From Fidelibacterota bacterium TCS56 (GTDB lineage: Bacteria > Fidelibacterota > Marinisomatia > Marinisomatales > TCS56): a DNA stretch of 33,778 bases. Below the pieces are notes generated by a model that worked only from the letters and a program-made list of their open reading frames with translations, searched no databases and had not been told where the DNA came from. Of this stretch, positions 6,050 to 28,073 are shown piece by piece. Within the stretch, counting starts at the first letter, position 1. Each line of letters starts with the position of its first letter. The position numbers and the translations under genes are program-made. The stretch lies in the NCBI GenBank assembly GCA_001577055.1, contig LSCG01000016.1, forward strand, positions 1-33,778, in the 5' to 3' direction.

Positions 6050-6059
6050 CAGGGATTTG

Positions 6060-7526: not shown

Positions 7527-7648
7527 TTAGGTTACTCCTTGTTGTTTAGGTTTATCAAAGGGTCGGAGGCAGGTATCATCTCTGTAATCTATAACATAAG
7601 CGACTATTTTGACAGTCTTTTTCCACGATAACCACTACCCTTTAATCA

Positions 7649-9775: not shown

Positions 9776-9778
9776 TGC

Positions 9779-12700
9779 TCAAAAACTGAAGGTTAGCCCG
9801 ATTGTTATATCCCTGGGATTCAGAAAAGTGAAATAGGTCAGATTGGGCATGTCGATATATGCTTTAGGCTCAATAACGTTTTTCTCAATCCAGCCCTTAC
9901 TGCGCTCGACCCAGGCATCATTTTCATATTGCAAATACCGTTCGGTTAGCTGATCATAATATACCGCTCGTTCATACAGATCGCTTTTTTGCGATACATC
10001 CTCATAAGTTATCAACGGTATAAATTCCGTGTTTTCTTCACGATACTCACCTACCCGGTCGCTACCTTTAAACTGGCCGAATTTCTCATCATCAAACATC
10101 AATGATTCCATATAATAACGATAATCGTAAGTATCGGCGAACCCGGCATAACTCAGAAACTTAGTGTTCAGCAGATTGTCAATATCCACATATAACTGGA
10201 CACGCTTGGTCTGGCCTATATTGATATCCTTTTTCAAGCGCAGATCGATCCGGTAAGTATCTTTCCAGCGGACGTTATATAATACATTAGCCTGATTATC
10301 AGGATTCCAGGTCGTATATCTGCCGGCCCGCCAGGAAAAGAGCATATTAGCCGACCATCCGCCCAGAAAACGCCGGCCCAGCAAGCTTGGTCCAAAGGTT
10401 TTTGGGATAGCTAAATCCAAATTAGCCCGGGCATAAGGCTGGGGCCGTGGTTTTTCCTGAACCGGGTTATTTCTCAAGTATTCGCGCTGTTTGTTAGGAT
10501 CTTCCCAATTCTCCAACAGACCAAAATAGCCGGAGGTGCTGACCATATAGGTATAGTTAACAAACCCGGATAACCAGGAACGGGTATTTTTACGTTTTTC
10601 CATGGTGATCTCCAGACCACGGATATCTTCATAATTATTGTTATCAGGTTTGCTGTATTGGACGGAACTATTGAGATTATAATAATCGATCCAACCCGGC
10701 TGGGCGGTAACATCTTTGTAGTAACCGGCAATACTCAATAGATAATCATTTTGAAATGCCTGAACATAGCCCAATTCATAAGAAATCGTACGCTCTCGCT
10801 CCAGATTGGGATCACCGATTGAAGTGACCAGGCCACTATATTCTCGTTGCAGTCTGAAGCGATAGGAGGAGGCCGGTTCGGTATGGAAATGGCCATAATT
10901 GAAATATAATTTTGAATTGTCGGTAATCGGATGAGAAATAGCCAGGCGGGGATTAAGACTAAGATCCGGCTGGGATTTTATTGTAGGAGCTTCATCTTCG
11001 ATCAAATGACCGTAGTACTCTTTGTAGTATTTATCATAGATTGCCAGATCATACCAACTTACTGCTGAATTAGAATATTCCGCCCGCAGACCGATATTGG
11101 CGATAAAGCCTTTATATTCCAATTTATCCAGCAGATATGCTTCAAACCTGATTGGCGATACATCATACACCTGGCTGCGGTTCCAGGTCGTCATCCCCGG
11201 ATTAGTGGCACCGGAATTGATATCCATCCTTTCCCGAACATAGATGAAACCGGTTTTAATTTCGTTGGTGGGATTCAATTGCGTCGTGAGATCAAGCTTC
11301 AGAGTTGAGGTAGTAACGACACTGGTATCACGACCTAAATTCATCCATCCCCCCAGCCGCATACCATCCTTGCCTCCGACACCATAGCCCCAATAACCAT
11401 ACGGGGCTTCATCCACATAATAGCCATCGACAATTTGATAAACTTCAGCCGTGTCACGATCCTCAATCTGATAAGTGAGGTAATCATTAATATTATGTTG
11501 TGCGAAAACAGTATAATACGTTTTATCATTCAGAATATGGTTAAAATTCACTCCCATGACCATTCGATCAATGGTGGTCGGACTGTACCACCCGGGCATA
11601 TAGATCAGACTGTTGCCGGAGCTGCTGCCTACCAGATTAGCGATTTCATAATCGGAACGTAATACCTGGCCGGTGGGGGTGGTAGTCCAGTTATACGGTG
11701 AAACCGACTCAGTCCGGGCTTTGGAAGTAATCAGGCTTAATTTCATATCGGAACTGAGATCAGAAGTCAGTTTCAGGCGGCCCACTGTTTCCGAATAACT
11801 GTCCTGTGAAAGAGGAATGACGAACATTTCCTGTATATCGCGATATGAAGCGTAGAACCGCATATTCCCCAGTGCTGCTCCCATACCTGGAAGCGGCCCG
11901 CCAAACCCGAAATCAATCGTATAATCAGGTTTGACAATATCTCCCTGACGCCGGTGTTGAAATTCCCACTCATGCTTGGCCCCTTCCGGTGTCAAATCGT
12001 TGCTAGGATCATCATCCATCAAGGTCTGGTTGGCAACGGAATTCCACCCCTGAAATTTGGGATACTGGCGTTTTTGATAAACATCCCAGGGACTGGCGGG
12101 GCTATGGGTACCAATGAAACAAACTTCCGGGTCGGTGTATGGTCGCAGGAAATATGTATCCGGGTGGTATACTGACAAGCCGAAGTGTTTGGCGGCCGGG
12201 GGACGATGTTGGTAAATCAGGGTACCATGATAATGATCAGGATCTCCTTCGCGCGTAGAAATATTGACTATTCCTGACCGGGTATTGCCGTATTCAGCAG
12301 AGAATCCGCCGGTTTGTACCAGTAAATCATTAATCGAACTCAGGCTGACTGCCGTGAACGGTATGTTGGAGCGACTATCGTTCATGATAAAGCCATCCAC
12401 CATGTAGGTAGTCTGACGGGAAGCTCCGCCGCGAATCACCAATCCATCCTGGATACCGGCCTGCATACCAATTACCGTGTTAACATCATTCACAGGCAGG
12501 GCTTCGATCGTTTCAGATGAAACATAAAGCTGGCTGGCGGCGACATCCACCACAACCGGCTTCCGTTCGGCTACGATTGTCACTCCCTCCATGCCAATCA
12601 CTTCCGGCACTAGGGAAGCATCAATTGTTGTTGTGCGGTCCACCACGACCTTGACAGCCGTCACTTCTACCCGGTTATATCCAATCATAGAAATATTTAA

Positions 12701-12916
12701 ACTGTAATCCCCGGGCGGGACATTCAATATAACATAATATCCATCCGCATCGGTGGCTACCCCCAGGCTGGTTCCGGTTAAAATAATATTAACCCCGGTT
12801 AATCCCTCACCCGTTTCCTGATCGGTAATCTTTCCGCTGATTTTACCGCTTACACCGGCCAGAATAAAATTTAACCCGATTATTACGGCCAGTAGCACAC
12901 TTTGAATTATTTTCAT
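9779..12916 (-). CDS. TonB-dependent receptor with N-terminal carboxypeptidase-regulatory-like domain (copy 2)
   Basis: GKISGKITDQETGEGLTGVNIILTGTSLGVATDADGYYVILNVPPGDY; plug GLVIRGGASRQTTYMVDGFIMND; TonB-receptor barrel of ~1045 aa ending in FLNPRDITIGLTFSF. Confidence 0.88.
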   Translation of the reverse strand: MKIIQSVLLAVIIGLNFILAGVSGKISGKITDQETGEGLTGVNIILTGTSLGVATDADGYYVILNVPPGDYSLNISMIGYNRVEVTAVKVVVDRTTTIDASLVPEVIGMEGVTIVAERKPVVVDVAASQLYVSSETIEALPVNDVNTVIGMQAGIQDGLVIRGGASRQTTYMVDGFIMNDSRSNIPFTAVSLSSINDLLVQTGGFSAEYGNTRSGIVNISTREGDPDHYHGTLIYQHRPPAAKHFGLSVYHPDTYFLRPYTDPEVCFIGTHSPASPWDVYQKRQYPKFQGWNSVANQTLMDDDPSNDLTPEGAKHEWEFQHRRQGDIVKPDYTIDFGFGGPLPGMGAALGNMRFYASYRDIQEMFVIPLSQDSYSETVGRLKLTSDLSSDMKLSLITSKARTESVSPYNWTTTPTGQVLRSDYEIANLVGSSSGNSLIYMPGWYSPTTIDRMVMGVNFNHILNDKTYYTVFAQHNINDYLTYQIEDRDTAEVYQIVDGYYVDEAPYGYWGYGVGGKDGMRLGGWMNLGRDTSVVTTSTLKLDLTTQLNPTNEIKTGFIYVRERMDINSGATNPGMTTWNRSQVYDVSPIRFEAYLLDKLEYKGFIANIGLRAEYSNSAVSWYDLAIYDKYYKEYYGHLIEDEAPTIKSQPDLSLNPRLAISHPITDNSKLYFNYGHFHTEPASSYRFRLQREYSGLVTSIGDPNLERERTISYELGYVQAFQNDYLLSIAGYYKDVTAQPGWIDYYNLNSSVQYSKPDNNNYEDIRGLEITMEKRKNTRSWLSGFVNYTYMVSTSGYFGLLENWEDPNKQREYLRNNPVQEKPRPQPYARANLDLAIPKTFGPSLLGRRFLGGWSANMLFSWRAGRYTTWNPDNQANVLYNVRWKDTYRIDLRLKKDINIGQTKRVQLYVDIDNLLNTKFLSYAGFADTYDYRYYMESLMFDDEKFGQFKGSDRVGEYREENTEFIPLITYEDVSQKSDLYERAVYYDQLTERYLQYENDAWVERSKGWIEKNVIEPKAYIDMPNLTYFTFLNPRDITIGLTFSF

Positions 12917-12985
12917 CTTACAACCAGGCCTGATCGATAAGAGATTTCACCAAGATTAATCTTAATGTTGCTGAGGTTTTCACTG

Positions 12986-14233
12986 TCAGTCTCTGCCATA
13001 ATATGGAGCACCCGGTTCACCCATGTTGATCTTCAGTAACCGCTTCGCTCCTAAATTACCATAATTGGCATACAAGAAATCGCCGGTGCCCCAAACTATT
13101 TTATTGATCGGTGTACTTAAAACCAACTGGTAAAATGGCTGCAGTATGCCGTCTGTGGTCATCACGGTGAGGGCGCTACCACCATTGGCACTTAGGAATA
13201 ATTTTCCATCGGCAGCGAAGGTAATACCGGTGATATTTTCAAACGTTTTGCCGGTGTAACTAAACCAATCCAAAACCAATTCTTCGGCACCCAGGGTACC
13301 ATCAGCGGCAATCGGCAGTTTCCAGACACCTTCCTGAATCGCACTGGAATCGGAACCAAAGTATTTTCCCGCCAGATACAGGTCATTTTGGAAAACCTTT
13401 AAACCGGCCACTTTTACGGAATCTAATGTTGCTTCCAGCGTGGCAGTCTTAGTATCGGTATCCACCCGGTATATATCACCGGTGCTGCCGGAGGTGTATA
13501 AATGGCCATACTGATCGAAGTCCAGATCCTTCAGGATCAGATTGCGGGGGAACAAAGATAACCAGGTTGGATCACTGGCCCCGGCGGGTCCGATGCGAAA
13601 CATGGCAAAAGTCTGAACAAAATACAGGTAACCACCTGGGCCGAAACGCATGGCAGTGGCCCCACTGGCACTGAAACTGGCATAATCTGAGCTGATATCG
13701 GTTGAATCCGGGGCAATGGAAAATATATCCTTCTTTACGGAAGCAAATACATTTTCCGCTGTATCACAAGCAACGGCATTGATATCGTCGGCATCGATAA
13801 AACCACCTATTTCGCCGTAAACAGGCATCAATTTAAATGGTGCGATAGTGTTGGAATACAGGTAAGCGCCGAGCGTTGAGACTTTTACCTGGATCGAATC
13901 ACCTTCGATATTAGGAACAAGGACGGTCAGGTCAGTGGTTGTAGCATCAAGAATTTCACCTTTAGTGGAATTGAAGAAAACCAGATTATCGCTGATTTGA
14001 TCGGAAAAGTTTTCGCCGATTAAAGTTATTTCACCGACACCGGAATAGGTCTGGGTTCCACTGGCGGCCGGGGTATATCCGGTCATATTTGCCGGTACAA
14101 CCTGACTGATCACCGGATCGGAATTGACTTCTTGATTGGGGTCCCAAAGACTGTCAGGATAATCAGGATCTTCACACCCAATCAGCCCCAACAAAATCGT
14201 AATGCTAATGATTGCGGATAAGAAATTTTTCAT
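12986..14233 (-). CDS. Lipoprotein with IPT/TIG-like domain and propeller-like C-terminal region
   Basis: Lipobox ILLGLIGC; IPT/TIG-like stretch VGEITLIGENFSDQISDNLVFFNSTKGEILDATTTDLTVLVPN; following repeats resemble NHL/SMP-30-type blades. Confidence 0.65.
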   Translation of the reverse strand: MKNFLSAIISITILLGLIGCEDPDYPDSLWDPNQEVNSDPVISQVVPANMTGYTPAASGTQTYSGVGEITLIGENFSDQISDNLVFFNSTKGEILDATTTDLTVLVPNIEGDSIQVKVSTLGAYLYSNTIAPFKLMPVYGEIGGFIDADDINAVACDTAENVFASVKKDIFSIAPDSTDISSDYASFSASGATAMRFGPGGYLYFVQTFAMFRIGPAGASDPTWLSLFPRNLILKDLDFDQYGHLYTSGSTGDIYRVDTDTKTATLEATLDSVKVAGLKVFQNDLYLAGKYFGSDSSAIQEGVWKLPIAADGTLGAEELVLDWFSYTGKTFENITGITFAADGKLFLSANGGSALTVMTTDGILQPFYQLVLSTPINKIVWGTGDFLYANYGNLGAKRLLKINMGEPGAPYYGRD

Positions 14234-14272
14234 GACTTTATCTCCAATAAGCTGGTGAGCATTTAAGGCGAT

Positions 14273-15283
14273 TTAAAATGACAGGTTTAATGAAAACTGT
14301 TGGACATCCACAAATCTGCCGAATGGTGTGTAAGCGTAATCGATACCGATTTTCATCAGATTAATATCTTTGTGAACACCAAAACCATAAGTGAATCCCT
14401 GCTCATCATAATTATAGCGGTACCCGCCACGAAGCGCCAGCATATTCATCAAGGTGTATTCGACTCCCAGGTTGAGGCGCTCCGAATAGGATCTTTGATG
14501 AATGGCGTCCAGAGATAAAATCAGTTTACTGTTCTCGGACCGCGACGGCCAGAAATTGAACAGATCAACAGAAGAGCCGATCTGAAAGGTTAATGGCAGT
14601 TGGAATCCTTCGGAATAAAATTTTATCTCTTCTGAGAAATTCCGGATCGACATGCCAAAAGTGAATTCTTTCCACTGAGTAACGTAGATGGTACCGAAAT
14701 CAAATGCAAAAGCATCGGCAATATTCTTATCCACAATCCGGGTGGTATCTGAGGTTGGCGTTATGCTCTTCCCCAGATATTGATAGGCTTTCTTAATTTG
14801 CCCACCAACGGTAAAACTCTGTGACAGGGCGCGTGCATAACCAATCCCCATACTGAAAGCACTGGGGTTAAGGATTTCAGTATCAATATAACCTAATTCA
14901 TTTCCCCAAACCATCGTGCCTTCAACCTGACCGTAATCTACGGTTTGCAGGGAAAACCCAATCACACCAAACCGTCCGCCCATAGGTGCAAATGCGGCAC
15001 TTAGTGAATTGTGTTTAATATCGGCAATCCAATTATTCTGGTTAAGCCCAAGATCAACGAACCCGGTTATCCGAGCCATACCGGCAGGGTTGTAATACAA
15101 GGCACTGGAATATCCTTGTAAGGTTGTCATTGCTTCAGCCATACCGGCGGCGCGGGCGTCCGAGCCGACACTGAGAAACTGAAATCCGGTCTGGGCCAGC
15201 TTGGTATCAGCGCCTGTTATACTGTGCGGTATCAATACTGTTGTAGCTAGCGAGACGATAATTATTGACAGTCTTTTACGCAT
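14273..15283 (-). CDS. PorV/PorQ-family outer-membrane protein
   Basis: GFQFLSVGSDARAAGMAEAMTTLQGYSSALYYNPAGMARI is the characteristic PorV/PorQ N-terminus; beta-barrel pattern follows. Start moved to ATG 15283 because GAGGG upstream gives a good SD (listed ORF starts at 15298). Confidence 0.82.
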   Translation of the reverse strand: MRKRLSIIIVSLATTVLIPHSITGADTKLAQTGFQFLSVGSDARAAGMAEAMTTLQGYSSALYYNPAGMARITGFVDLGLNQNNWIADIKHNSLSAAFAPMGGRFGVIGFSLQTVDYGQVEGTMVWGNELGYIDTEILNPSAFSMGIGYARALSQSFTVGGQIKKAYQYLGKSITPTSDTTRIVDKNIADAFAFDFGTIYVTQWKEFTFGMSIRNFSEEIKFYSEGFQLPLTFQIGSSVDLFNFWPSRSENSKLILSLDAIHQRSYSERLNLGVEYTLMNMLALRGGYRYNYDEQGFTYGFGVHKDINLMKIGIDYAYTPFGRFVDVQQFSLNLSF

Positions 15284-15287
15284 TTTA

Positions 15288-15857
15288 TTATCCCTCATTT
15301 AAAACTACGGCGTTAAAATTCTTGAGTGCTGCGGCATCGCAGGTGAACCATACAATATATTTTTCAGCACTTAAAGTATACTCCAGTCGAGTTTTGACTT
15401 GATCACAACCGGCGACGGTTTCCATAGCGATTGAATAATCATTTGCTGCAACCGGCAAACCATCAAGATCATACAAGCTGACATGCAGATCCGTATTCGA
15501 ATACCGGTCAAAGAAGAAAATAATTTCTGTCCCACCCGTACTATTATCAAACAGATATAGAATCGTATCACCGGCGGCGGCAACGTCGAAAGACCATACG
15601 GAATCGGTACGGACAAAAAACACTTGATCGACCGAATCCAGTACAGCTATTGTGTCTGCTATTGAACCCAAGGTCGAATCAATCGTTGCGGTGGGTGTGA
15701 CTTCGACGAAATTTGAATCAACCGTGAAATTTTGTAGTAACGTACAAGCCTCCTGATCCACATCGGCAATTAGATAATCCTCATCCTGAAAATCTTCACA
15801 GGAATAAAAAATCGCAATCGCCAAAATAAACAGCAGGTAAGTATTTGTCTTTTTCAT
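15288..15857 (-). CDS. Putative lipoprotein of unknown function
   Basis: MKKTNTYLLFILAIAIFYSCEDF lipobox; start trimmed from 15917 to ATG 15857; lies between fn3-like and PorV-like genes on the same strand. Confidence 0.65.
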   Translation of the reverse strand: MKKTNTYLLFILAIAIFYSCEDFQDEDYLIADVDQEACTLLQNFTVDSNFVEVTPTATIDSTLGSIADTIAVLDSVDQVFFVRTDSVWSFDVAAAGDTILYLFDNSTGGTEIIFFFDRYSNTDLHVSLYDLDGLPVAANDYSIAMETVAGCDQVKTRLEYTLSAEKYIVWFTCDAAALKNFNAVVLNEG

Positions 15858-15879
15858 GACATTTCCCATTTTAAAAGTC

Positions 15880-18015
15880 TCATCGCACAACAATAAATTT
15901 CTTGAAAGTACTATCACCTTTCCTGAAAATCAGATTGCCGGTCCCGGGATCGGTGATATCCTCAGTCACCTCGATATGGGCAATATACAGGCCACTGACA
16001 ATCACCTGTCGGGAGCTGGTCTCCGAATTCCAGTCCTGGTCACCACTGCCATCGATATGGTTGATGGTTTTGATTAGATCGCCTCGTTCGGTGAAAATTC
16101 GAATCGTACATTTACCGGGGATATTTAAAAACATAATCCGGTCTTTCCCCAATTCGGTCCCGTATTGACTGCTACGGGCGCTGATCGAGTATGGATTTGG
16201 TACAATACGTATATCATCAAGTCGTTTACCTGGTGGCCGCTTCAAACTGGCCGGCTTATTGGTCATTGTGTAAAACTTGCTACTGACCAATGGATGGCCA
16301 TTGGAATTCGTTCCATCATCATAACTGACGATATAATAATAGTAATCGAATCCTCTTACGGCGGTAATATCATCGAATGTATTGACGCCCGCCGGTCCGT
16401 CATAAATCAGGTCAAAAGTGGTATCAGATTGGAAAATAGCCCGATAGATTTTATAACCGGCGAAGCCACCTGACACCTCGGCATTGGAATCCCAACTCAG
16501 GGCAATCCGATCACCCTGTCCATTGACATTGAATGTCGCCGGCGGCGGTGGTGGCGACGGAATATCAAAACCGGAGCGGTAATTCTCCCGGGCCCGCTGG
16601 AAAGTTTGAATCAGCGAATCAATCCCGGTATAGACCCAGTAATCCTTATACTCATGCCGGTCGGCTGGCGAGCTGCCATCGGGAAGATCACCGGGTGTAT
16701 CATTCAGCCAGTTGGCACCGATTTCATAGCATAATTCACGACTGAGACCAGCCACGCCTTCGGCTATAACAATCTTTACCTTCTCCCCTGGCATCATCGT
16801 GTACGGCCCGAATCCCTGTCCTTGGGAATAACCACCCGGATTGGTTTTCCCGGGTTCAGTCCATTGATCGGCAAAACTGTCGCAATCCGGTCCCGGTGTG
16901 CCGCCGCAAACTGATTCTGCGTGGCTTTCCGGCGGATGCCCGGCGCTCATTGCTGCGTATTCAGCGGTCATCCGCGAGGGATTGAACTGATCATTCCCGG
17001 CGGTGGTAATATATTCATCGGACCCCACATACCTGGTGGTCATTGGTTGATACAGGTTATCGCTGTTATCGCCCGGGGAAATGTCAGCATGAATTGTGGC
17101 ACATCCGGCAAATTGAGCTGCCCCAAGATGTCCATCGCCATTCACATTGGGAGCGCCGATATTATTAAAACTGGCACCCGAGTGTCGTCCATGCCAGGAA
17201 TAAAGCGCTCGAATAATTTCACCATCGTTATAGAACCGATCGCTGGGACCGGGAGCTTGCGGTGTCTCCCCAATAACCTCGTTAAGCGTATTATGTCCCC
17301 AGGCGGCGCTCTGTGGCAGCCAATTGCCATCGTACACGGCTCCCTCCCGCGAAATTGCATAACGGTACTGAAAAAACAGATACACATCCTCAAGGGTTTG
17401 ATCATAGGTAATATTACCATCCTTGTCATAGATACCGTTATTCTCAAGTTCGTATTCGTAAATAAAATAATTATCATGGAATTGATTTGAAAAAGCGTAG
17501 ATCTTCCGCGTAATCTTAACACCCATGGAAGTCTGAACAACTGTTTCCAGCATTCGATCTGATGGCAGGTCAGCATCCAGGGAATCAACCTGGTCCATAT
17601 ACTGCATATCAGTAGCCGGTACTAAATCCACATACACACCAGGATGATCAAATTTCCCCCAGTATGTGAATTTTTTAGGCATAGTTTCACTTTGAATATC
17701 CAGGTGACGCGGCCCAACGTGTACGACCTTATGTTCAAAATCAGTATTAGCGACCGGGTCATGATAGTTTTTGGCCCCAAGCCACATCCCCTTAGCCGCC
17801 TGATTGTCCTGCGCCGAATATTGCGCCGGCCAACGCAGACCATCCTGCTGATCATCGATTTGACCGGTGCGACCGGTTTCCTGTTCAGAGCCAGCCTCAG
17901 AATACCAATTATGAAGATTACCAATGGCAATCCATTTGGTCTCTTCACCGGACAAGATTCCCAGAGCCACAAATGCTAAGACAGCTAAATATGTAAAACC
18001 ATTATGTATTTTCAT
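15880..18015 (-). CDS. Large secreted protein with fn3-like region and variant C-terminal sorting-like domain; paralog of 7649..9775
   Basis: Same conserved blocks as the 7649..9775 protein. Likely start ATG 18015 (AGAGGAATT-ATG, signal peptide MKIHNGFTYLAVLAFVALGILSG); the longer ORF from 18069 overlaps the receptor stop. Confidence 0.7.
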   Translation of the reverse strand: MKIHNGFTYLAVLAFVALGILSGEETKWIAIGNLHNWYSEAGSEQETGRTGQIDDQQDGLRWPAQYSAQDNQAAKGMWLGAKNYHDPVANTDFEHKVVHVGPRHLDIQSETMPKKFTYWGKFDHPGVYVDLVPATDMQYMDQVDSLDADLPSDRMLETVVQTSMGVKITRKIYAFSNQFHDNYFIYEYELENNGIYDKDGNITYDQTLEDVYLFFQYRYAISREGAVYDGNWLPQSAAWGHNTLNEVIGETPQAPGPSDRFYNDGEIIRALYSWHGRHSGASFNNIGAPNVNGDGHLGAAQFAGCATIHADISPGDNSDNLYQPMTTRYVGSDEYITTAGNDQFNPSRMTAEYAAMSAGHPPESHAESVCGGTPGPDCDSFADQWTEPGKTNPGGYSQGQGFGPYTMMPGEKVKIVIAEGVAGLSRELCYEIGANWLNDTPGDLPDGSSPADRHEYKDYWVYTGIDSLIQTFQRARENYRSGFDIPSPPPPPATFNVNGQGDRIALSWDSNAEVSGGFAGYKIYRAIFQSDTTFDLIYDGPAGVNTFDDITAVRGFDYYYYIVSYDDGTNSNGHPLVSSKFYTMTNKPASLKRPPGKRLDDIRIVPNPYSISARSSQYGTELGKDRIMFLNIPGKCTIRIFTERGDLIKTINHIDGSGDQDWNSETSSRQVIVSGLYIAHIEVTEDITDPGTGNLIFRKGDSTFKKFIVVR

Positions 18016-18068
18016 AATTCCTCTTGCAAAATTGAAACTTGACGATTCATGCTCAGATCGATAATTCA

Positions 18069-21000
18069 TCAGAAATCATATGAGATTGTCAACCCGAAAT
18101 AAATATCGCGGGGATTGAGAAATACGTACCCGGACTGATTCGGCATATCAATATATGCTTTATCCTCGAGCACGTCATCGAAAAACCCTTGATCAACTGC
18201 CTGCCAGCCGTCAGCCGACGTATACTGCAGATAACTGTCACTGGCATAATCATAGTAAATCGGGCGCTCGCTGGGCTCTGACAAGCCATTAACATCACCT
18301 ACCCATTCCAACGGCACAAAATCCACATCATTTTCACGGTAATCGCCGGGTCGATCATTTTTATCAATCCTCGGGAACGTTTTTAATCCGATCTCTTCAC
18401 GGATTTTATCAGGTACCAAGAGGGATTCCATATAGTATGAATAGTCAAAGCCGTCGATGAAACCGTATCCTGAGAAAATCTTGGTATTCAAGGCATTATT
18501 GATATCAGCGAATATCTTTATCTTGGCCCTGCCAATAGTAAATATCTTCGACAGTTTCAGATTCAAGGTCAATTGATCACGATACTGCATATTGTATTCA
18601 ACCCCTTGGACCTGGCCGGGATTATACGTAAACCAGAGGCCGGCCTGCCAGCGGGTGGTGGTATTCAGGTGTATTCCTCGCAGCAGATTAACTCGGAAAT
18701 CATCAGGTACATGAAAATCGATCACCGATTTTACTCGTGGTATCGGCTTTGGTTTTGACTGCGGGATATTGCGGCGTTCATAGTCACGTTGTTCAGAGGG
18801 ATTTTCAAAATAAGTATCCACACCGAAATGTCCGTAAGAGTTAACACGGTACTCGGCATTAACGAAACCTGTTACCCAGTCACCAGCGGCTTTGGCTACC
18901 TCGAACTCAAACCCGCGGATATCTTCATAACTGTTGGAAGTCAGTTGACTGTAATTGGATTTACTGTCGGCGCTGATGTAATCAGTATAATCCTGCTGAT
19001 CGGTCACGTCCTTGTAATAAGTAGACAAATGCAAGCGGTAGATCTCCATCAGTACCTGATCGAAACCCAATTCGTAAGATATGGTTTTGGCCAAAGGCAG
19101 ATTGGGGTCACCTAAATTATAAACTTCATTGGCTGGTCCTCGTCTTACGCGGTATAGATCCTGTGCCAGGGGCATTTGTCGGTAATGACCATAATTGAAA
19201 TACAGTTTTGAATTCTCGGTTATCGGATGCGATACTGCCAGGCGGGGACTGAGTGTAAGATTTGGTTTGATTTTCTCAACCGGAAACTCATTCTCTAAAT
19301 TAGGATCATAAGAAGTCGAGAAAAAACTGGCATCGTAAGGTGAAACCACATACCAATCACCATTCGGGTTAATAAAATCCAAGACCAATCCGGCAGAAGC
19401 AATAAATCCTTTATATTCCAATTTATCCTGGGCATATATATTAAAACGGTAGGGTTGTTGGTCCACGGATGACCAGTAATTTCCGCCCGGCAGAAATTCA
19501 TTGCGTGAGCCAAATTCCATATTCAGATTATTAACCACCAAGTTAAAACCTGTTTTTAATTCATGGTTGGTAGTTATCTGGCTGGTCAGGTCACCACGAA
19601 ATGTGTAGGTGGTAATCCGGCTGGTATCACGTGAAGTGCTGATCGCTCCTCCAAAGGCCAGCGAACCCTCGACACTGTATGAAGATAACCCGGAGAAACC
19701 AACCGGAGCCTCATCAGCATACCAGGTGGGGAAAACTTCGTAAATCGGATCAAAATTACGCCGGCGGTCATGCCAGGTATGGTAATATTTATGGCTGCGC
19801 TGAAACAAAACTTCGTAATAAGTCCTCTGACTTAGTTGATGGGTCAGTCGCATTGAAAGTGCATTTTGAAATATTTTGGTGGGACTCCAATAATTATCAG
19901 TGTATAACCGCCAGGGCATAGTAAATCCATCACGATCAACAGACCCGGCTAAATCCCAGACATCATTCATATAGGAGGTGCCACCACCGCGCGAAATAGT
20001 AGTGGCGTCAACTTCCCCATACATGCCGGTAAATGTGAAGCGGATTGCGGATGATAAATCTGAGGTAAGTTTCAGCATCGATGTTGAGGTGTTTAAGGCC
20101 GGACGCGATACCTGATATAAATACATCTCCTGATTCTTTTTATGCGATAAGAAGAATCGCAGGTTGCCCAGCATCTGACCGATAATCGGTACGGGACCGC
20201 CAAATCCGCCATCAATAACAAAATCAGGTTTATCGATGGCGCCATTTTTACGGTGCTCCCAAGTAAACAATTTGCGCGCACCTTCCGGGGTCAGGTCATT
20301 GTCAGGATTATCATCCGCCAGGGATTGAGCTGCAATTGAGTTCCAGCCCTCGAACTGGGCATATTGACGCTGGGTATATTCATCCCAGGCTCCACTGCCT
20401 GAGGTTCCGGTCCAACAAACCTCATCATCCATATAAGGCCGTAAAAAATATGAGGAAGCATCATAGGGAGAAAGTCCAAAGTGCTTTTGGCTGGCAGGAC
20501 TATGCTTAATAGTAATTGTACCGGAATAGCCCGTCAAAGACCCACTGCGCGTAACAACATTAACAACCCCCGAACGAACATTATTGTACTCGGCATTGAA
20601 GCCACCTGTTTGTACGGAAATATCGGAAATAGCGCTGAGGGGTATGAAGGTGTTGGGTTGATTATTTCGTTCATCATTCAAAATCAATCCATCCACCATC
20701 AACATTGTCTGATCAGTACCTCCACCCCGGATACTGAATCCTTGAATACCGGCTTTTAATCCGATTATTTCAGATACATTGGTCACAGGCATTTCTTCGA
20801 TTTGTTCAGCGGGAACACTAGTTTGACTGGCGGCGACATCCATTTTTATTGGCTTTCTACCGGCCTCTACTACCACTGTCTGTCCCATAATAATTTCCTG
20901 TGATAAACTAATATCCAATTGAGTGGTCAGATCGATTTCGATCCGGACATCACTGGCTTGATAACGGGTATAGCCCATCATGGTGACGATGACATCATAG

Positions 21001-21218
21001 GTGCCGGGAGGTATATTCAAAATGACAAAATTACCATTCAGATCAGTTGCGGCCCCCATGGTCGAGCCAGCGATTATTACATTAGCGCCAATCAACGGAG
21101 CTTCAGTATCAGCCTCGTAGACTTTGCCAGTCAGTTTACCGGAAATACCGGCAAACAGAGTTGTTATCATGAAGGGTATAAAAACAATTACGATTTTAAA
21201 AATAGAATTGTTTCTCAT
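18069..21218 (-). CDS. TonB-dependent receptor with N-terminal carboxypeptidase-regulatory-like domain (copy 1)
   Basis: GKLTGKVYEADTEAPLIGANVIIAGSTMGAATDLNGNFVILNIPPGTYDV; plug IQGFSIRGGGTDQTMLMVDGLILND; barrel ends FLNPRDIYFGLTISYDF; SD GGAGGA upstream. Confidence 0.88.
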   Translation of the reverse strand: MRNNSIFKIVIVFIPFMITTLFAGISGKLTGKVYEADTEAPLIGANVIIAGSTMGAATDLNGNFVILNIPPGTYDVIVTMMGYTRYQASDVRIEIDLTTQLDISLSQEIIMGQTVVVEAGRKPIKMDVAASQTSVPAEQIEEMPVTNVSEIIGLKAGIQGFSIRGGGTDQTMLMVDGLILNDERNNQPNTFIPLSAISDISVQTGGFNAEYNNVRSGVVNVVTRSGSLTGYSGTITIKHSPASQKHFGLSPYDASSYFLRPYMDDEVCWTGTSGSGAWDEYTQRQYAQFEGWNSIAAQSLADDNPDNDLTPEGARKLFTWEHRKNGAIDKPDFVIDGGFGGPVPIIGQMLGNLRFFLSHKKNQEMYLYQVSRPALNTSTSMLKLTSDLSSAIRFTFTGMYGEVDATTISRGGGTSYMNDVWDLAGSVDRDGFTMPWRLYTDNYWSPTKIFQNALSMRLTHQLSQRTYYEVLFQRSHKYYHTWHDRRRNFDPIYEVFPTWYADEAPVGFSGLSSYSVEGSLAFGGAISTSRDTSRITTYTFRGDLTSQITTNHELKTGFNLVVNNLNMEFGSRNEFLPGGNYWSSVDQQPYRFNIYAQDKLEYKGFIASAGLVLDFINPNGDWYVVSPYDASFFSTSYDPNLENEFPVEKIKPNLTLSPRLAVSHPITENSKLYFNYGHYRQMPLAQDLYRVRRGPANEVYNLGDPNLPLAKTISYELGFDQVLMEIYRLHLSTYYKDVTDQQDYTDYISADSKSNYSQLTSNSYEDIRGFEFEVAKAAGDWVTGFVNAEYRVNSYGHFGVDTYFENPSEQRDYERRNIPQSKPKPIPRVKSVIDFHVPDDFRVNLLRGIHLNTTTRWQAGLWFTYNPGQVQGVEYNMQYRDQLTLNLKLSKIFTIGRAKIKIFADINNALNTKIFSGYGFIDGFDYSYYMESLLVPDKIREEIGLKTFPRIDKNDRPGDYRENDVDFVPLEWVGDVNGLSEPSERPIYYDYASDSYLQYTSADGWQAVDQGFFDDVLEDKAYIDMPNQSGYVFLNPRDIYFGLTISYDF

Positions 21219-21349: not shown

Positions 21350-22351
21350 TCAATAATCCTTAACCACATTCAGTAATGCAAGATAATTCTCAAATTTCAC
21401 ATAATCAGGGATACTGTTCCCGGACCCGGCGCAATATCCACCGTTATGTCCTACGTGTTCAATATTGTAAATAACAGCTTTTCTGACGTCCTCTGGCGTC
21501 CCCATTGCCAGGATATCGCCAACATCCACATTGCCGATTAAGGCCAGTTTATCGCCGTATCGTTTTTTTACTTCAACTATATCCATTGCCTTGGGCTCGA
21601 TTGGATGTAAGGCGTTGATGCCACATGCAATCAGATCATCGATCACATCCCACAAGGCGCCATCACTGTGATAAATCAAAGGTTTATTGGCCGCAGCGGC
21701 CAGATCCCCGATCTGGTTTATCCAGGGGAAAAGGTATTCACGAAGAACCTCCGGACTCATCATCAGGCCAGCGATATAGGCAATATCATCACTGTACCAG
21801 AGTGCGTCAACCGCCTCGTGCCGGGCAAAATATCTGAACATTTCCAGTACCGGTTCCCCAATCCGGGTAAAAATCGCCTTGATTAATTCGGGATCGTCAT
21901 ACAACGCCAGGGAAAATCCTTCAAACCCCATCAGCTCCCAGGTCATTGTGAAGATATCACCGTATTGGCCGATCACCCCCATCCCCGGGGGAAGATACCT
22001 GCTCACCCGGTCAAAATTGCTATAATCAATTTCTTCCGCGGTCAGGAAATCAAACTGCTCAAAATCATCCCGGTTGCTGATAGTCCCCTTACCTTCCGCT
22101 GCCCAGGACACTTCGCTGGTCACGCTTTCATCGCTGTTGTGCAAAGGAACCCGAAAATCGGCCCGCGGTTGCAGTTTGATATAATCATAACCGGCCGAAT
22201 GCCAGAAATCCACGTCGTCGGCCAAAGTGTTAACCGGCCGCCCCAAATACTGAGCCTTAATTTTCGGATGGATTCCCAGCTCCATCAGTGGAATATGCGT
22301 ACCTTTACCACCCCATAGCGTGTGAATTAATTGTTCCTTGTCAGGCCTCAC
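21350..22351 (-). CDS. Uroporphyrinogen decarboxylase (UroD)-family protein, probable corrinoid-dependent methyltransferase
   Basis: UroD-family pattern ...DALWYSDDIAYIAGLMMSPEVLREYLFPWINQIGDLA...PLIYHSDGALWDVIDDLIACGINALHPIEPKAMD...LIGNVDVGDILAMGTPEDV. GTG start at 22351. Confidence 0.8.
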   Translation of the reverse strand: MRPDKEQLIHTLWGGKGTHIPLMELGIHPKIKAQYLGRPVNTLADDVDFWHSAGYDYIKLQPRADFRVPLHNSDESVTSEVSWAAEGKGTISNRDDFEQFDFLTAEEIDYSNFDRVSRYLPPGMGVIGQYGDIFTMTWELMGFEGFSLALYDDPELIKAIFTRIGEPVLEMFRYFARHEAVDALWYSDDIAYIAGLMMSPEVLREYLFPWINQIGDLAAAANKPLIYHSDGALWDVIDDLIACGINALHPIEPKAMDIVEVKKRYGDKLALIGNVDVGDILAMGTPEDVRKAVIYNIEHVGHNGGYCAGSGNSIPDYVKFENYLALLNVVKDY

Positions 22352-22409
22352 TGCCGGCGCTCATCTGGTATTTACCTCCCTGCAGAAACCGCTTGAACCG
22401 GAAACAACT

Positions 22410-22429
22410 ATAGTCGTCTAGACAACTAT
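22410..22429. promoter_or_regulatory. 20-bp near-perfect palindrome, candidate operator
   Basis: ATAGTCGTCTAGACAACTAT, one mismatched symmetric pair, located between the divergent UroD and corrinoid-protein genes. Confidence 0.4.
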
Positions 22430-22556
22430 CCCAGCACATTATCATGGCGTAAAAATAACCGCAAACAGGATAAATGCCAAAGATTACTGTGTACTATTTC
22501 AACTAAATATTAACTTTCAAACCCTTAATTAATCCTGAATCCACACTGGAAATATC

Positions 22557-23183
22557 ATGAACGAACTTACGGAGATAGCACAAAAACTGGAGGCCGGTGA
22601 CAGCCAGGCGGTGACCGCAGCAATTGAGCAGGCCATCACCGGCCAAATTCCCGCTGCCACGATTCTCAACGAAGGATTAATCGCCGGGATGAACGTCATC
22701 GGTCGCAGATTTAAGGCCGGTGAGATTTTTATCCCCAATGTACTGATCGCCGCCCGCGCCATGAATGCGGGAATCGCCTTACTGGAACCGCGTCTGGCGG
22801 CTGATGGGATTAAACCGGTGGGGAAATTGTTAATCGGTACCGTTCAGGGGGATTTACACGATATCGGTAAAACACTGGTTAATATATTGTTTAAAGGGGC
22901 CGGATTTGAAATTATCGACTTGGGCGTAAACGTACCGGCGGAAAAATTCCTGCAGGCGGCCCGGGCAGAGAAACCCGACCTGATCGGAATGTCGGCTCTG
23001 CTGACCACCACAATGCTGAACATGGAGAGCTGTATCCGCCAATTACGAGCCAGCGACGTAACTGCCACAATCATTATCGGGGGCGCACCCACTTCCCAAA
23101 AATTCGCCGCTAAGATAAATGCCGACCTGTGGGCCGCCAGCGCCGCCGATGGAGTCGAGCTGGCAAAACAAGCCGTTGCCTGA
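22557..23183 (+). CDS. Corrinoid (B12-binding) protein, MtaC/MtbC/MttC type
   Basis: N-terminal helical cap (B12-binding_2) followed by GTVQGDLHDIGKTLV (DxHxxG base-off motif), IGMSALLTTTM, IIGGAP. Confidence 0.9.
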   Translation: MNELTEIAQKLEAGDSQAVTAAIEQAITGQIPAATILNEGLIAGMNVIGRRFKAGEIFIPNVLIAARAMNAGIALLEPRLAADGIKPVGKLLIGTVQGDLHDIGKTLVNILFKGAGFEIIDLGVNVPAEKFLQAARAEKPDLIGMSALLTTTMLNMESCIRQLRASDVTATIIIGGAPTSQKFAAKINADLWAASAADGVELAKQAVA

Positions 23184-23192
23184 TACCGGAAA

Positions 23193-24032
23193 CTATTTCA
23201 ACGGGACAAAGCGGCTGACGACAATGCCATCAAACAGCGGTCCCTCCGGCGGAAAATAATAATCGATAAAATCGAGAATCACCGTTTCCCCGGCCGACTG
23301 GGAAGCATGCACCAGTGATTTCCCGTCAATAATCATCCCCTCGTGGGCGAAGATAATCCCCAGCATGTAATATTGCTCACGGACGAATGAGACGACACAA
23401 ACCTCCGGTAATTGCGCCAGAAGTTCCCGGTTGATTTGATCACTGGGGATATATTTTAACTTGATGGGCCGCTGCCAGTCCAAATCCAGAAACTCTTCTC
23501 CATCCTCTTTTATATTCAAAATAATCTCGGCTGTCGCCAACCGATTATCGGGCAGTAAGTCCTCCACAAAACTGACCGTATAGGGATTGGCCGTTACGCG
23601 ATCGGCGGTGTAATGCCAGCGGGAACGATAAGTGGGTTTTTTATGACCGTCCCGGTCCGCTTTATAGTGGATTTCGATCATATTGGCGCGCGCTTCAGCC
23701 CAATTGGCACTTTGGGCCAGGGCCAGTGATGTGAGCACATGACCGGTACAATCGGAAACATCCAGCCGGATTATAGGATCGGGATCGGGTTCGATCTCCT
23801 CTCCCAGCTTGAAAATCTCGTAAGGAGTACCCACGCGCCACAAAGCGATGGCCTTCAGCCGTTTCTCAAAATCGGGGAAACGCTGCTGGAACTCGGCCAG
23901 GATTTCCGAAGCCTTATCCTCAGCCAGGCGCCATGGTTTCGGCTGACTGGCCAACCATTCCCAGTCATTCCGGCACCCGGCCAGGGTCATGAACGTAATT
24001 GATAATACTATCAATAATAATTTTTTAATCAT
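23193..24032 (-). CDS. Lipoprotein resembling DUF1460 / NlpC-P60-like amidase
   Basis: Lipobox MTLAGC; DCTGHVLTSLALAQ (candidate Cys) and HEGMIIDGKSLVHASQSAGETVILDFIDYY resemble DUF1460 patterns; starts inside the stop region of the upstream homocysteine methyltransferase gene. Confidence 0.55.
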   Translation of the reverse strand: MIKKLLLIVLSITFMTLAGCRNDWEWLASQPKPWRLAEDKASEILAEFQQRFPDFEKRLKAIALWRVGTPYEIFKLGEEIEPDPDPIIRLDVSDCTGHVLTSLALAQSANWAEARANMIEIHYKADRDGHKKPTYRSRWHYTADRVTANPYTVSFVEDLLPDNRLATAEIILNIKEDGEEFLDLDWQRPIKLKYIPSDQINRELLAQLPEVCVVSFVREQYYMLGIIFAHEGMIIDGKSLVHASQSAGETVILDFIDYYFPPEGPLFDGIVVSRFVPLK

Positions 24033-24921
24033 GATTTACCTCAGAATCAATATGCTTTCGAATCGCCCTAATATGATCAGGAGTGGTACCACAACAACCG
24101 CCAAGAATTTTAACCTTCGCTTTCATCAGACGATCAATATTCGCCGCAAAAAACTGTGGTGATTCGCCATATTCCAGTCCCCCGTCTTTTTCTACCGGTA
24201 AACCGGCATTGGATTGAATCATCAATGGCAGGTCTGTCAGGGACGATATTTCGGTGGCGATGGCGATCATATTCTCCAGGCCATGACCGCAATTGGAGCC
24301 GATCATATCCACCTGGGCCGCTTCGATGGCAGTTACTGCTTCTGAAATTGCCGTCCCCATCATAGTAAAAAAGCCATTGGGGGTCGCATCGAAGGTCATG
24401 CTGGCGACAATTGGCATCCCGGGATCAACTTCCCGGCAGGCGTCGATCGCCAACTGCAATTCATTCGGATCGGTCATGGTTTCGATAAAAATAACATCGA
24501 CATCCCCATCAATCAGACCTTGGATCTGGCGCTGGAACCCGGCCTGGATTTCAGTCGGCCGGGCCGGACCGCAGGGCTCCAGCAGCAGTCCGGTGGGTCC
24601 GCAGGAACCGGCCACCAGGATTTCCTCCCCCACCGCCGCCCGGGCCAACTCGGCTGCCAGACGATTCAGTTGCTCGGTTTTATCATCCTGACCGTAAATG
24701 GCCAATTTGGCCGGTGATCCGCCAAAACTATTGGTTTCCACCAGATCGGCGCCGGCCCGGGCATAATCACGGGCAATGGAACGAATCAATTCCGGCCGGC
24801 TCAGGTTCAGCGCTTCGGGGCAGTCACCCGATTGCATTCCGGCGGCCATCAGCATGGTCCCCATAGCACCATCACTGACCAGAATTGATTTTTCATTCAA
24901 GGCTTCCAGGAAGCTATTCAT
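24025..24921 (-). CDS. Homocysteine S-methyltransferase family protein (MetH N-terminal domain-like)
   Basis: LVSDGAMGTMLMAAG, ADLVETNSFGGS, zinc-ligand motifs GSNCGHG and GGCCGTTPDHIRAI. Confidence 0.88.
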   Translation of the reverse strand: MNSFLEALNEKSILVSDGAMGTMLMAAGMQSGDCPEALNLSRPELIRSIARDYARAGADLVETNSFGGSPAKLAIYGQDDKTEQLNRLAAELARAAVGEEILVAGSCGPTGLLLEPCGPARPTEIQAGFQRQIQGLIDGDVDVIFIETMTDPNELQLAIDACREVDPGMPIVASMTFDATPNGFFTMMGTAISEAVTAIEAAQVDMIGSNCGHGLENMIAIATEISSLTDLPLMIQSNAGLPVEKDGGLEYGESPQFFAANIDRLMKAKVKILGGCCGTTPDHIRAIRKHIDSEVNHD

Positions 24922-24932
24922 AAGTCTTTCCG

Positions 24933-25613
24933 CTAAGTATTTTTAAGTCCACGTAAGCGTGGCAAACAGGATTTGGTGCGGCATTCACGACAGAAGGTGA
25001 AGCCGGGATGAAAATGATGTATTGCGGGCGCCCCTGTAACCACCACGCCGGAAACAGATTTCAATGGTTGCATCAGGCATTCCTCATTAATTATCACACC
25101 GATTTGCTCCGGCTTCAGCCAGGCAAACAGGGCCCGCTGCCCGGTTATATGCCAGCCACAATATCCAGGACTATAGGCCAGGCTGACCCGGTTATCATTA
25201 TATTCCTGCTGTTCTAAATAACCGACGGCATTATCGGCGGCACAGGAAGCCACAGCATCCAGCAGATAGCCGTGGGCAATATCACTGGTCAGGGTTGATT
25301 CAATGGCAGCGCTGAGATCACTGCCGAGAGTCAGCACGAAAACCAGCAGTTCCTCCCCACCGGGAAAAATATCCTGCAGGGGCGCCTGAGGATCGTTGGC
25401 TGCGTTTTTAAAAATGGTGCTAAATCGGCGCCGGGTAACCCGATCAGTAATGGCCCGGGCCTGCACCTGTCGGTCATAATCATGAAAGGCCTGTTCCAAC
25501 GCATCCCGGGCCGGCGCTGACAAGTGGTTGATCTCGGCCACGCCCTGCTCGGCCAGAACCTGCTCAAAACCGGGCCGGATTAGCCGGGGATCAATCTCAA
25601 GGATGGTACTCAT
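24933..25613 (-). CDS. Stand-alone B12-dependent methionine synthase activation (SAM-binding) domain protein
   Basis: SLAYSPGYCGWHITGQRALFAWLKPEQIGVIINEECLMQPLKSVSGVV matches the MetH activation-domain core; C-terminal CRECRTKSC. Start trimmed to ATG 25613, giving an ATGA overlap with the upstream stop. Confidence 0.82.
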   Translation of the reverse strand: MSTILEIDPRLIRPGFEQVLAEQGVAEINHLSAPARDALEQAFHDYDRQVQARAITDRVTRRRFSTIFKNAANDPQAPLQDIFPGGEELLVFVLTLGSDLSAAIESTLTSDIAHGYLLDAVASCAADNAVGYLEQQEYNDNRVSLAYSPGYCGWHITGQRALFAWLKPEQIGVIINEECLMQPLKSVSGVVVTGAPAIHHFHPGFTFCRECRTKSCLPRLRGLKNT

Positions 25614-27103
25614 TGCGGCGGCAGCCTGCAATCAAATTTTTGCGCTTCAGACGCCATTCGCCGATCCAGCTCCTGCTGTTTCTCCCTAGACAGCGACGGA
25701 CCTTCATCGCCAGTTATGATTTCCTCTACCAGCGCACGGGCACGGGCCGGCAGCGATTGCCTGTCTTCCGCTTCCCATTTGGAAGTGGGGCTCCGGTCGA
25801 TAACCGCCCCCGGAAATTGATGTTCCTGGTTCAAGTATTTCAAGGTGTGATCGGATATAATCAAATGTTGATCGCGCTCCATTTCGTCCAGCAGCGGTTG
25901 TACGGCAATATTTCCATAGTCGGTCACACCGGACTGCAACCGCCGACACATCCCGGCGATTTCATTATCCACCAGCAGTTTTTCCAGGCTGAAACTGTTT
26001 TCGAATTCCAGCATCCCCGGTCCGGAGATACTGTTGATTCCGCTCATGGTGGCCAGCACTGCTCCCATCCCGGTTTCCAGCCCGGCCTGGGTATCGAGTT
26101 GCTTGGCATCGCTGAGGGCGATATAGGCCTGGGTGGGAATTGCCTGTGATTGGCCGATTTCATTATTGCCGCAGTCCAGCAGCATGGTTTCCATGGCGCC
26201 CATGGGCGTAGTCTGATGGCGAATATCGAAGGCCGTCGGCGACCCGCCCCACAGAACGGGATTACCGGGATTAACCAGTTGCACCAACACAATGCCACTG
26301 ATGATTTCCGCCGCCATTTGAGCCAGGGTGCCGGTAATTGTCACCGGGGAAATAAAACCAGTCATGGGCATGGGGACGATTTCCATGGGAATACCGTGAC
26401 GGGCACAATCGATAATAGTACTGGCAACCGGCGCGCTCAATTTCAGCGGAGCCACCGGGCAGACGGTAAAAACCGTCAACGGATATCGCCGCAGATCGGC
26501 CGAATCCCGGCGAATAATCGTCTGCAAATCGTGCATGATCGCCAACGATTCAGCGCCGAAAGTACCGGTTATTACCGGCTTGGTACCGAATTTCAAACTG
26601 AGATATAAACGATAGCTGTCGGAAATCTCAACGGCCACATCATCGGGAATGAAGGCCGTACTCTGTCCGTCGATATATTTCAGTTGCTCCACCAACCGGA
26701 CGTAGTAAATATAATCGGCGGTATTGGGCGAACGCATTTGACCGCTGATGGAATCAATGATTTTTAAAGCCGATGATCCTGGCTCGAAATGAGTTTGCCC
26801 TTTTACGAAATGATGCGTCTGCCGGTAATTGGAATCATACAGGGAAAACTCAGCCGGTACGCGCTTTAACGCTGCCTGGGCCATATCGGCGGGGATCAGC
26901 AATCGTTTTTCATCCGCTTTGAGTTTGGCTCCGTTATCCAGCAGCAGCGCGGAGGCCTGGTTGTCCCCTACCTCAACGCCGAATTCCGCCAGACAAATGA
27001 AGGCTTCCTCAAGTATCCGCTGGCGCAAATCGGGTGACAGGAAACGAATGTGCGCCGGATTGTCTGCTGAACGGTTGTTGCCGGATTTAGGCGTTTGATC
27101 CAC
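25610..27103 (-). CDS. Trimethylamine methyltransferase (MttB) family protein without internal TAG (non-pyrrolysine type)
   Basis: FLSPDLRQRILEEAFICLAEFGVEVGDNQASALLLDNGAKL...FEPGSSALKIID...GFISPVTITGTLAQMAAEIISGIVLVQLVNPGNPVLWGG...; 497-aa uninterrupted frame; GTG start at 27103. Confidence 0.85.
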   Translation of the reverse strand: MDQTPKSGNNRSADNPAHIRFLSPDLRQRILEEAFICLAEFGVEVGDNQASALLLDNGAKLKADEKRLLIPADMAQAALKRVPAEFSLYDSNYRQTHHFVKGQTHFEPGSSALKIIDSISGQMRSPNTADYIYYVRLVEQLKYIDGQSTAFIPDDVAVEISDSYRLYLSLKFGTKPVITGTFGAESLAIMHDLQTIIRRDSADLRRYPLTVFTVCPVAPLKLSAPVASTIIDCARHGIPMEIVPMPMTGFISPVTITGTLAQMAAEIISGIVLVQLVNPGNPVLWGGSPTAFDIRHQTTPMGAMETMLLDCGNNEIGQSQAIPTQAYIALSDAKQLDTQAGLETGMGAVLATMSGINSISGPGMLEFENSFSLEKLLVDNEIAGMCRRLQSGVTDYGNIAVQPLLDEMERDQHLIISDHTLKYLNQEHQFPGAVIDRSPTSKWEAEDRQSLPARARALVEEIITGDEGPSLSREKQQELDRRMASEAQKFDCRLPPQ

Positions 27104-27286: not shown

Positions 27287-28073
27287 ATGAAGAGATATAC
27301 AGTAACACTTACCAAAACCGAGCGTGAAGAGCTTCAGGATATTGTACGCAAAGGGAAGCACCGGTCGCAAAAAGTTCTGAATGCCTTGATTCTTTTAAAC
27401 TGTGATAAAGGCCGGTTCCAAACCAAGCGTACGCTCAATGAAGAAATGGCAACTGTCCTCCAGATTAGCATGCGGAAAATCGACCGGGTGAAAAAAGTTT
27501 TTGTGGAACAAGGATTGGATGTGGCGTTGAATGGAACCCGCGGCCAACGGGTATACAAGCGGGTAGCCGACGGAGAGGTGGAAGCCCATTTAATTGCCTT
27601 AAGCTGCAGTAAACCACCCCGGGGATATGCCCGCTGGTCGCTGCGACTGTTAGCGGATAGAGCGGTGGAATTAAACTATGTCGATCATATTTCCCATGAA
27701 ACCGTTCGCCGGGTGTTAAAAAAAACGAAATTAAACCATGGCGCCAACAAGGCTGGGTAATCCCCCCGGATGAGAACAGCAATTTTGTGGCCCAAATGGA
27801 AGCCGTTTTGGATGTCTACAAACGGCCCTATAATCCCTTAAGACCCGTAGTCTGTATGGACGAGTCTCCCCGGCAATTAATACAGGAAACCCGCACACCT
27901 TTACCGGTCAAAGCCGGCCGTGCAGGTCGCTACGATTATGAATATCGCCGTTGTGGGGTCTGTTCCATATTCATGGCCGGTGAACCCTTAAAAGGGACAC
28001 GGTTATCCAGGTGCGTAAACAACGGACCAAGCAAGACTGGGCCCGGTTTTTGGCCGCTATGACAAAGCACTAG
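27287..28073 (+). pseudogene. IS630-family-type transposase, frameshifted and 3'-truncated remnant
   Basis: N-terminal HTH ORF 27287..27760 continues in the -1 frame after an A8 run (27718-27725) as KNEIKPWRQQGWVIPPDENSNFVAQMEAVLDVYKRP...VCMDESPRQLIQETRTPLPVKAGRAGRYDYEYRRCGVCSIFMAGEPLKG. A second frame change near 27991-28001 leads to TVIQVRKQRTKQDWARFLAAMTKH*. The C-terminal catalytic third is missing. Confidence 0.8.

Follow-up and report, generated by a model that had tools for sequence, protein, structure and literature searches.

The window analysed here is a 33,778-nucleotide stretch of DNA from Fidelibacterota bacterium TCS56 (assembly GCA_001577055.1, contig LSCG01000016.1), which contains between positions 21350 and 27103 a cluster of genes for corrinoid-dependent methyl transfer whose core probably encodes a folate-independent methionine synthase. 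On the minus strand lie the genes for a non-pyrrolysine MttB-family protein (COG5598; 25610..27103), predicted to be a methyl donor:Co(I)-corrinoid methyltransferase, for Act, a stand-alone MetH-type reactivation protein (24933..25613), and for HcyMT, a zinc-type homocysteine S-methyltransferase that corresponds to the N-terminal module of MetH as a protein of its own (24025..24921). The start of Act and the stop of MttB overlap by 4 bases. The gene for Corr, a corrinoid protein with cap and Rossmann B12-binding domains (22557..23183), is the only one of the set on the plus strand. The five open reading frames (ORFs) named in the initial annotation, these four and a UroD-family gene, are all present where it placed them, with families borne out by Pfam, and the DLHDIG motif of Corr and the zinc motifs GSNC and GGCCG of HcyMT are present as well. 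As it also claimed, no folate-binding protein was found by Pfam among the members of the cluster.

The MttB protein matches PF06253 with an E value of 5.6e-65 (219.7 bits against a gathering cut-off of 25). Aligned to its solved relatives MttB (7xcl), MtgB (9yce) and 2qne, it has a Leu at the pyrrolysine position (L330 in A-L-S-D-A-K), and its ORF has no internal stop; the Leu rules it out as a pyrrolysine trimethylamine methyltransferase proper. HcyMT belongs to PF02574 (S-methyl_trans, 6.6e-70) and not to PF01717, the MetE-like catalytic domain of the Mes proteins. Its best solved relative is the N-terminal part of Thermotoga maritima MetH (1q7m, 4e-52), ahead of BHMT (5e-16), and it scores 231.8 with the NCBIfam BHMT model, below the cut-off of 338. 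Since HcyMT is nearer to MetH than to BHMT, a direct reaction with betaine seems rather unlikely. Corr matches PF02607 (B12-binding_2, 2e-20) and PF02310 (B12-binding, 6e-25), and its best NCBIfam matches are MtgC models (MtgC/MtbC-type), with scores below their cut-offs.

The Pfam match of Act to PF02965 (Met_synt_B12, 2e-6) spans 61 residues and is barely above the cut-off. TM0269 of Thermotoga is a stand-alone SAM-dependent reactivase for the MetH protein TM0268, and Act matches its profile (1j6r) with an E value of 5e-9. The AlphaFold2 model of Act (pLDDT 89) also has TM0269 as its best structural match (E 4.8e-10, TM-score by target 0.79), followed by MetH activation domains at about 1e-6, and the modelled fold is thus the MetH activation-domain fold, as in TM0269. 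The alignment across the operons, the TM0269 profile match and the fold match together secure the identity of Act as a MetH-type reactivation protein. Act keeps the sequence motif PGY, and SAM binding and reductive methylation are predicted for it. All 80 relatives analysed have an invariant Cys in YCGW, within a conserved YSPGYCGW, and a C-terminal CX2CX4C, both of which are absent from TM0269; these cysteines form a candidate metal site, for either Fe-S or zinc.

To trace the cluster in other bacteria, Act was searched against 245 Neomarinimicrobiota genomes, which gave close full-length homologues in 12 genomes (13 loci including the window). In the relatives among them, MttB, Act, Corr and HcyMT follow one another in this order on one strand in every locus, as far as the contigs extend. 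A wider scan of GTDB r220, with one genome per species, yielded 415 loci encoding Act relatives; the best 80 were analysed, and the operon counts rest on the 54 of these with sufficient flanking DNA. The neighbourhood conservation proposed as a test in the initial annotation was found: 45 of the 54 well-framed loci have all four genes, 43 of them in the order MttB-Act-Corr-HcyMT, with Corr directly 3' of Act on the same strand. The operon occurs in uncultured bacteria under about 18 phylum-level labels, and its metagenome-assembled genomes (MAGs) are labelled Neomarinimicrobiota, Cloacimonadota, Zixibacteria, Acidobacteria, Aminicenantes, Gemmatimonadota, Eisenbacteria, Fermentibacteria, Bacteroidetes, KSB1, Calditrichia, Electryoneota, WOR-3, Planctomycetes (Phycisphaerae), Deltaproteobacteria/Myxococcota, Armatimonadetes, Actinomycetota and others, although such labels may be wrong (L059, labelled Armatimonadetes, and L061, labelled Cloacimonadota, are close neighbours in the tree). 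Because the four-gene operon recurs in many phyla, a chance grouping is excluded. In addition, the pairwise distances of the four proteins correlate (r 0.64-0.77, above all 500 shuffles in each case), indicating that the four evolved together. The relatives conserve DXHXXG in Corr, the zinc cysteines of HcyMT (NCG, GGCCG) and L-S-D-A-K in MttB, whose Leu stands at the position of pyrrolysine in Methanosarcina MttB. No pterin-binding protein was detected by Pfam within or beside the conserved operons, and Rfam scans gave no SAM or cobalamin riboswitch in the window or in 20 relative loci. The Rfam matches to PYLIS_3 inside non-pyrrolysine MttB genes (L059, L061, L066, L071, L079, L086-L088, L091, L093, L094, L099 and L115) were rejected as a pyrrolysine signal, as they appear to be coding homology to mttB, in which this position is Leu here.

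To find out which other methionine synthases accompany the operon, 60 operon-bearing genomes were searched for Pterin_bind, PF01717 (MetE/Mes), MTHFR and MtrH, and 15 of them also for PF02574. As a result, 13 of the 60 genomes were found to carry an MttB-containing operon and neither a recognisable MetH nor MetE/Mes (G069, G187, G245, G246, G258, G259, G274, G279, G282, G284, G285, G286 and G293). G069 and G187 are 96% complete, and G284 and G285 are single-chromosome assemblies. A fourteenth genome without MetH and MetE, G250, has a locus lacking MttB and Corr, and G270, a MAG of 1.1 Mb, was excluded from the tally. MetF is also missing in 9 of the 13 genomes (10 of 14 with G250), compared with 2 of the 45 genomes having MetH or MetE (Fisher p 3e-6 and 9e-7, respectively). 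The operon HcyMT is the sole PF02574 protein in G245, G258, G259, G279, G282 and G293, and the other PF02574 matches of G284 are short and weak. The operon is kept where the whole methyl-folate branch has been lost, as a folate-independent methionine synthase predicts. G069 and G187 keep MetF though without MetH. Five Fermentibacteria/Aegiribacteria genomes (G268, G269, G272, G278 and G291) have a weak Pterin_bind match, joined in G269 by PF02574, in frames of 533-797 residues, and in four of the five the frame adjoins an MTHFR match in a 609-residue frame; these are perhaps another unusual type of MetH alongside the operon.

Based on these results, we consider it probable that the core of the cluster forms a methionine synthase of four proteins that depends on B12 and is independent of folate, with predicted methyl-transfer reactions and a predicted direction. 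MttB would methylate Co(I)-Corr from a methylated compound, and the zinc-dependent HcyMT would pass the methyl group from Corr to homocysteine to form methionine. Act would remethylate the oxidised corrinoid with SAM plus an electron, after the precedent of TM0269 acting on Thermotoga MetH. The conserved operon thus lends support to the predicted chain from donor through MttB and the corrinoid protein to homocysteine, with its own SAM-type reactivase, and it points to the MttB protein as standing in place of the folate domain. The proposed folate independence also gains support, as the operon has no pterin protein and MetH/MetE and often MetF are lost in operon-bearing genomes. A folate-type acceptor partner, which the initial annotation had named as evidence against its proposal, was found neither in the window genome nor next to the conserved operons, and the search of the 60 operon-bearing genomes gave no MtrH-type acceptor. 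The initial interpretation is thus partly supported and, with the operon in many phyla, more general than first proposed. Chances are about even for a broader statement, namely that the operon represents a class of methionine synthase unrecognised so far in many uncultured phyla, in which MttB replaces methyl-folate, several lineages without MetH, MetE and MetF depend on it fully, the donor is a substrate new to the MttB superfamily, and Act is a cysteine-cluster, possibly Fe-S, variant of the reactivase.

Several observations weigh against this interpretation. Act lacks a conserved equivalent of the SAM-binding Arg of Escherichia coli MetH, and four Aminicenantes/Acidobacteria loci consist of MttB-Act with neither Corr nor HcyMT nearby. 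The genome of the window itself carries MetH and MetF. Among the genomes without MetH and MetE, G285 is no clean case because it also has an HcyMT-MTHFR fusion. Moreover, most of the genomes are MAGs without stated completeness whose absences are judged at the Pfam level, PF02007 may miss some MtgA/MtqA-type proteins, and the MetH/MetE/MetF loss counts are open to MAG gaps and shared ancestry among the genomes. Alternatively, some bacteria without MetH and MetE may take up methionine instead. The three MttB-Act pairs of Aminicenantes L081, L112 and L131, without nearby Corr or HcyMT, each follow a P-loop (MinD-like) ATPase and a small J-domain-like protein.

The window organism has a genome of 1.94 Mb that is 88% complete, with Neomarinimicrobiota as relatives, and Pfam-level searches, on which the genome-wide statements rest, identified on contig C12 a full-length MetH whose single 1238-residue frame contains homocysteine, pterin, cap and reactivation domains and is followed by MetF. 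The idea that the module replaces methionine synthase thus does not hold for this organism, where the module comes on top of an ordinary MetH. The genome also encodes a MmuM-like HcyMT (contig C55), one MttB and two cap-type corrinoid proteins, MetH included; PF01717 was not found in it. Its Pterin_bind proteins are only MetH and a 281-residue DHPS-like protein (FolP), and no MtrH was found at this sensitivity, so no separate folate acceptor of known type was found for Corr, as the initial annotation had expected.

The window copy of the module is markedly diverged. In the tree, the window MttB groups with two relatives of the same family, but its end branch is 1.61 against their 0.16-0.18. 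It is 50-52% identical to these relatives, which are 80% identical to each other, whereas MetH identity is about 66% in all three pairs. Among 163 positions with at least 95% conservation across the clade, the window MttB has changed residues at 33, one of which is T107E, next to the predicted pocket; its substrate may therefore differ from that of the rest of the family. Act, Corr and HcyMT of the window are also accelerated, with long branches, less so than MttB. One explanation, which we hold only tentatively and regard as less likely than a functional methionine synthase, is that the module of the window genus is decaying or changing function, being redundant with MetH and rearranged, with a drifting MttB and perhaps with the UroD protein as donor enzyme for a relocated Corr. 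It would account for an MttB branch about ten times that of the nearest relatives, for the changes at near-invariant positions, for the long branches of the other three proteins, and for a Corr gene that is inverted, detached and divergent from UroD with 205 bp between them. However, none of the four ORFs is truncated, their catalytic motifs are intact, and MttB, Act and HcyMT are still tightly packed. Moreover, MetH alone does not explain the drift of MttB, because the same-family relatives also have MetH yet a conserved MttB. We tentatively take the divergence of the window copy as a sign that selection has been relaxed or altered in this genus; the adjacent UroD protein may have become the new donor enzyme.

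The UroD-superfamily (MtaA/CmuA-like) protein (21350..22351, minus strand) matches PF01208 (URO-D, 5.3e-22), with weak MtaA/CmuA matches under the cut-off. No UroD gene occurs next to the MttB operons of the relatives. UroD was therefore rejected as a conserved operon partner, and its proposed membership of the pathway finds no backing there; yet UroD genes replace MttB in one relative locus. At L069:1016-6799, UroD genes occupy the donor position (UroD-UroD-...-Act-Corr-HcyMT) and MttB is absent; at L047:7276-10723 and L054:6179-10410, UroD-family genes flank Corr/Act, again without MttB. Judging from these three loci, with one or two UroD-family proteins each, UroD-family and MttB proteins are apparently exchangeable donor enzymes on one corrinoid/reactivase core, and it is possible that the window UroD protein is a second methyltransferase for the same corrinoid protein.

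Other genes of the window lie within or near the cluster. A gene for an AmiA-like lipoprotein (23193..24032, minus strand; PF07313, 5.8e-19) sits between HcyMT and Corr, overlapping the end of HcyMT. It had no match in the relative loci fetched and is probably an insertion peculiar to the window and unrelated to the pathway. Immediately upstream of the MttB gene, Pfam identifies an HTH_32/HTH_29 protein (27287-27760) of the kind seen in IS630-like insertion sequences, which could have aided local rearrangement. Positions 5005-21218 hold two adjoining, apparently duplicated sets (1045/708 and 1049/729 aa) of large outer-membrane-type proteins with carboxypeptidase-like starts and fibronectin-like secreted proteins.

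For the methyl donor of the putative methionine synthase, quaternary amines with an acidic group are the first guess, because known non-pyrrolysine MttB enzymes act on such compounds (PMC8604678, PMC12155760). No recurrent neighbours that would name a substrate were found at the operon loci, only scattered transporters and reading-frame shadows. The initial annotation favoured glycine betaine, in which case MttB would be an MtgB-like glycine betaine methyltransferase and the operon a B12-dependent betaine:homocysteine methyltransferase. MtgB (9yce/2qne) is indeed among the closest solved relatives of MttB, betaine is a common osmolyte, and the best NCBIfam matches of Corr are MtgC models. However, the Corr scores are below cut-off, MttB shares only about 28% identity with MtgB and with plasmid-borne rhizobial/roseobacter homologues, and no betaine transport or dimethylglycine genes recur near the operons. 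In addition, the DhMtgB betaine residues predicted by docking, Y94, N199, R309 and H345 (PMC6855144), align to S, C, Q and S, which are near-invariant within the operon MttB clade, a hint at a substrate other than betaine. Betaine as the donor is thus left unsupported, and we regard this assignment as unlikely.

Somewhat less probable again is catabolic methylotrophy, in which MttB would demethylate an osmolyte to feed folate C1 metabolism and HcyMT would be a side branch. MtgBCD in Ruegeria and MtgBCA in Desulfitobacterium operate in this way (PMC12478193), and the window genome has MetF, but neither the window genome nor the surroundings of the operons yielded MtgD-type pterin or MtrH-type proteins, HcyMT is almost always in the operon, and several genomes lack MetF. 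It is very improbable that MttB has turned into a methyl-THF-binding subunit and serves as an unusual folate domain in an ordinary split MetH dependent on folate: MttB-family and pterin methyltransferases are both TIM barrels and G069 and G187 retain MetF without MetH, but the MttB sequence remains inside PF06253 and nine operon genomes lack MetH, MetE and MetF alike, and so have no recognised route to methyl-THF.

A folate-independent methionine synthase of this kind belongs with corrinoid methyl-transfer systems and split methionine synthases. In Ruegeria pomeroyi, the separate MttB-family MtgB, corrinoid MtgC and homocysteine MtgE likewise join a methylated amine to methionine, but the link runs via the pterin protein MtgD (PF00809) and MetF2, with other reactivation proteins and scattered genes (PMC12478193). 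MttB-family, corrinoid and PF02574 proteins are present in the window and an MtgD-type (PF00809) protein is absent; the operon family has no MtgD and differs further in its single tight operon, its MetH-type reactivase and its occurrence in other phyla. The three-part split MetH of Phaeobacter inhibens also has HcyMT and cap/B12 as separate cooperating proteins, but it requires a separate pterin-binding protein together with RamA-like and DUF1638 proteins, and has no PF02965 member (PMC5764234). Of the Phaeobacter set of HcyMT, pterin and cap/B12 proteins, the window lacks the separate pterin protein, just as its cluster lacks the Pterin_bind domain of a full MetH; here the place of the pterin protein is taken by MttB, and reactivation falls to Act. 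The core methionine synthases MesA-MesD form methionine without a folate-binding domain as well, and MesA-C are thought to draw the methyl group from a corrinoid protein, but these enzymes are MetE-like (PF01717) and use a corrinoid protein of central metabolism (PMC7857596), whereas the operon has a PF02574 MetH-type acceptor enzyme, a dedicated corrinoid protein and an MttB donor enzyme. TM0268/TM0269 of Thermotoga maritima share with the operon a stand-alone reactivation protein and its fold, but Act adds the C-terminal CX2CX4C and the YCGW Cys, and TM0268 has a folate domain. The MttB-superfamily enzymes MtgB, MtpB, MtcB, MtyB and MthB similarly pair a non-pyrrolysine MttB with a small corrinoid protein, but pass the methyl group to THF or coenzyme M via MtqA/MtgA/MtaA and rely on ATP-dependent Ram activases (PMC8604678, PMC12155760), whereas the predicted acceptor here is homocysteine. 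The type I mlp clusters, which bear mainly on the UroD variants L047, L054 and L069, are also corrinoid methyltransferase clusters with UroD-family proteins and are proposed for methionine salvage, but they contain several UroD-family Mlps and Ram/RACE activases, and no MttB, HcyMT or MetH-type reactivase (PMC10418091). A literature search with subscription journals outside its scope turned up MtgBCDE and no account of an MttB-Act-Corr-HcyMT operon. None of MtgBCDE, the Phaeobacter split MetH and Mes has these four genes as a self-contained operon, and there is a fair chance that the operon is a distinct class of methionine synthase.

As a rule, methionine synthesis depends on methyl-folate. 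If the proposed pathway is correct, the operon would provide a widespread bypass in which methyl groups from outside or from recycling reach methionine directly by way of B12, explaining methionine synthesis in bacteria without MetH, MetE and MetF. A large branch of the MttB superfamily would also acquire a function, and the auxotrophy predictions for many uncultured phyla would need correcting.

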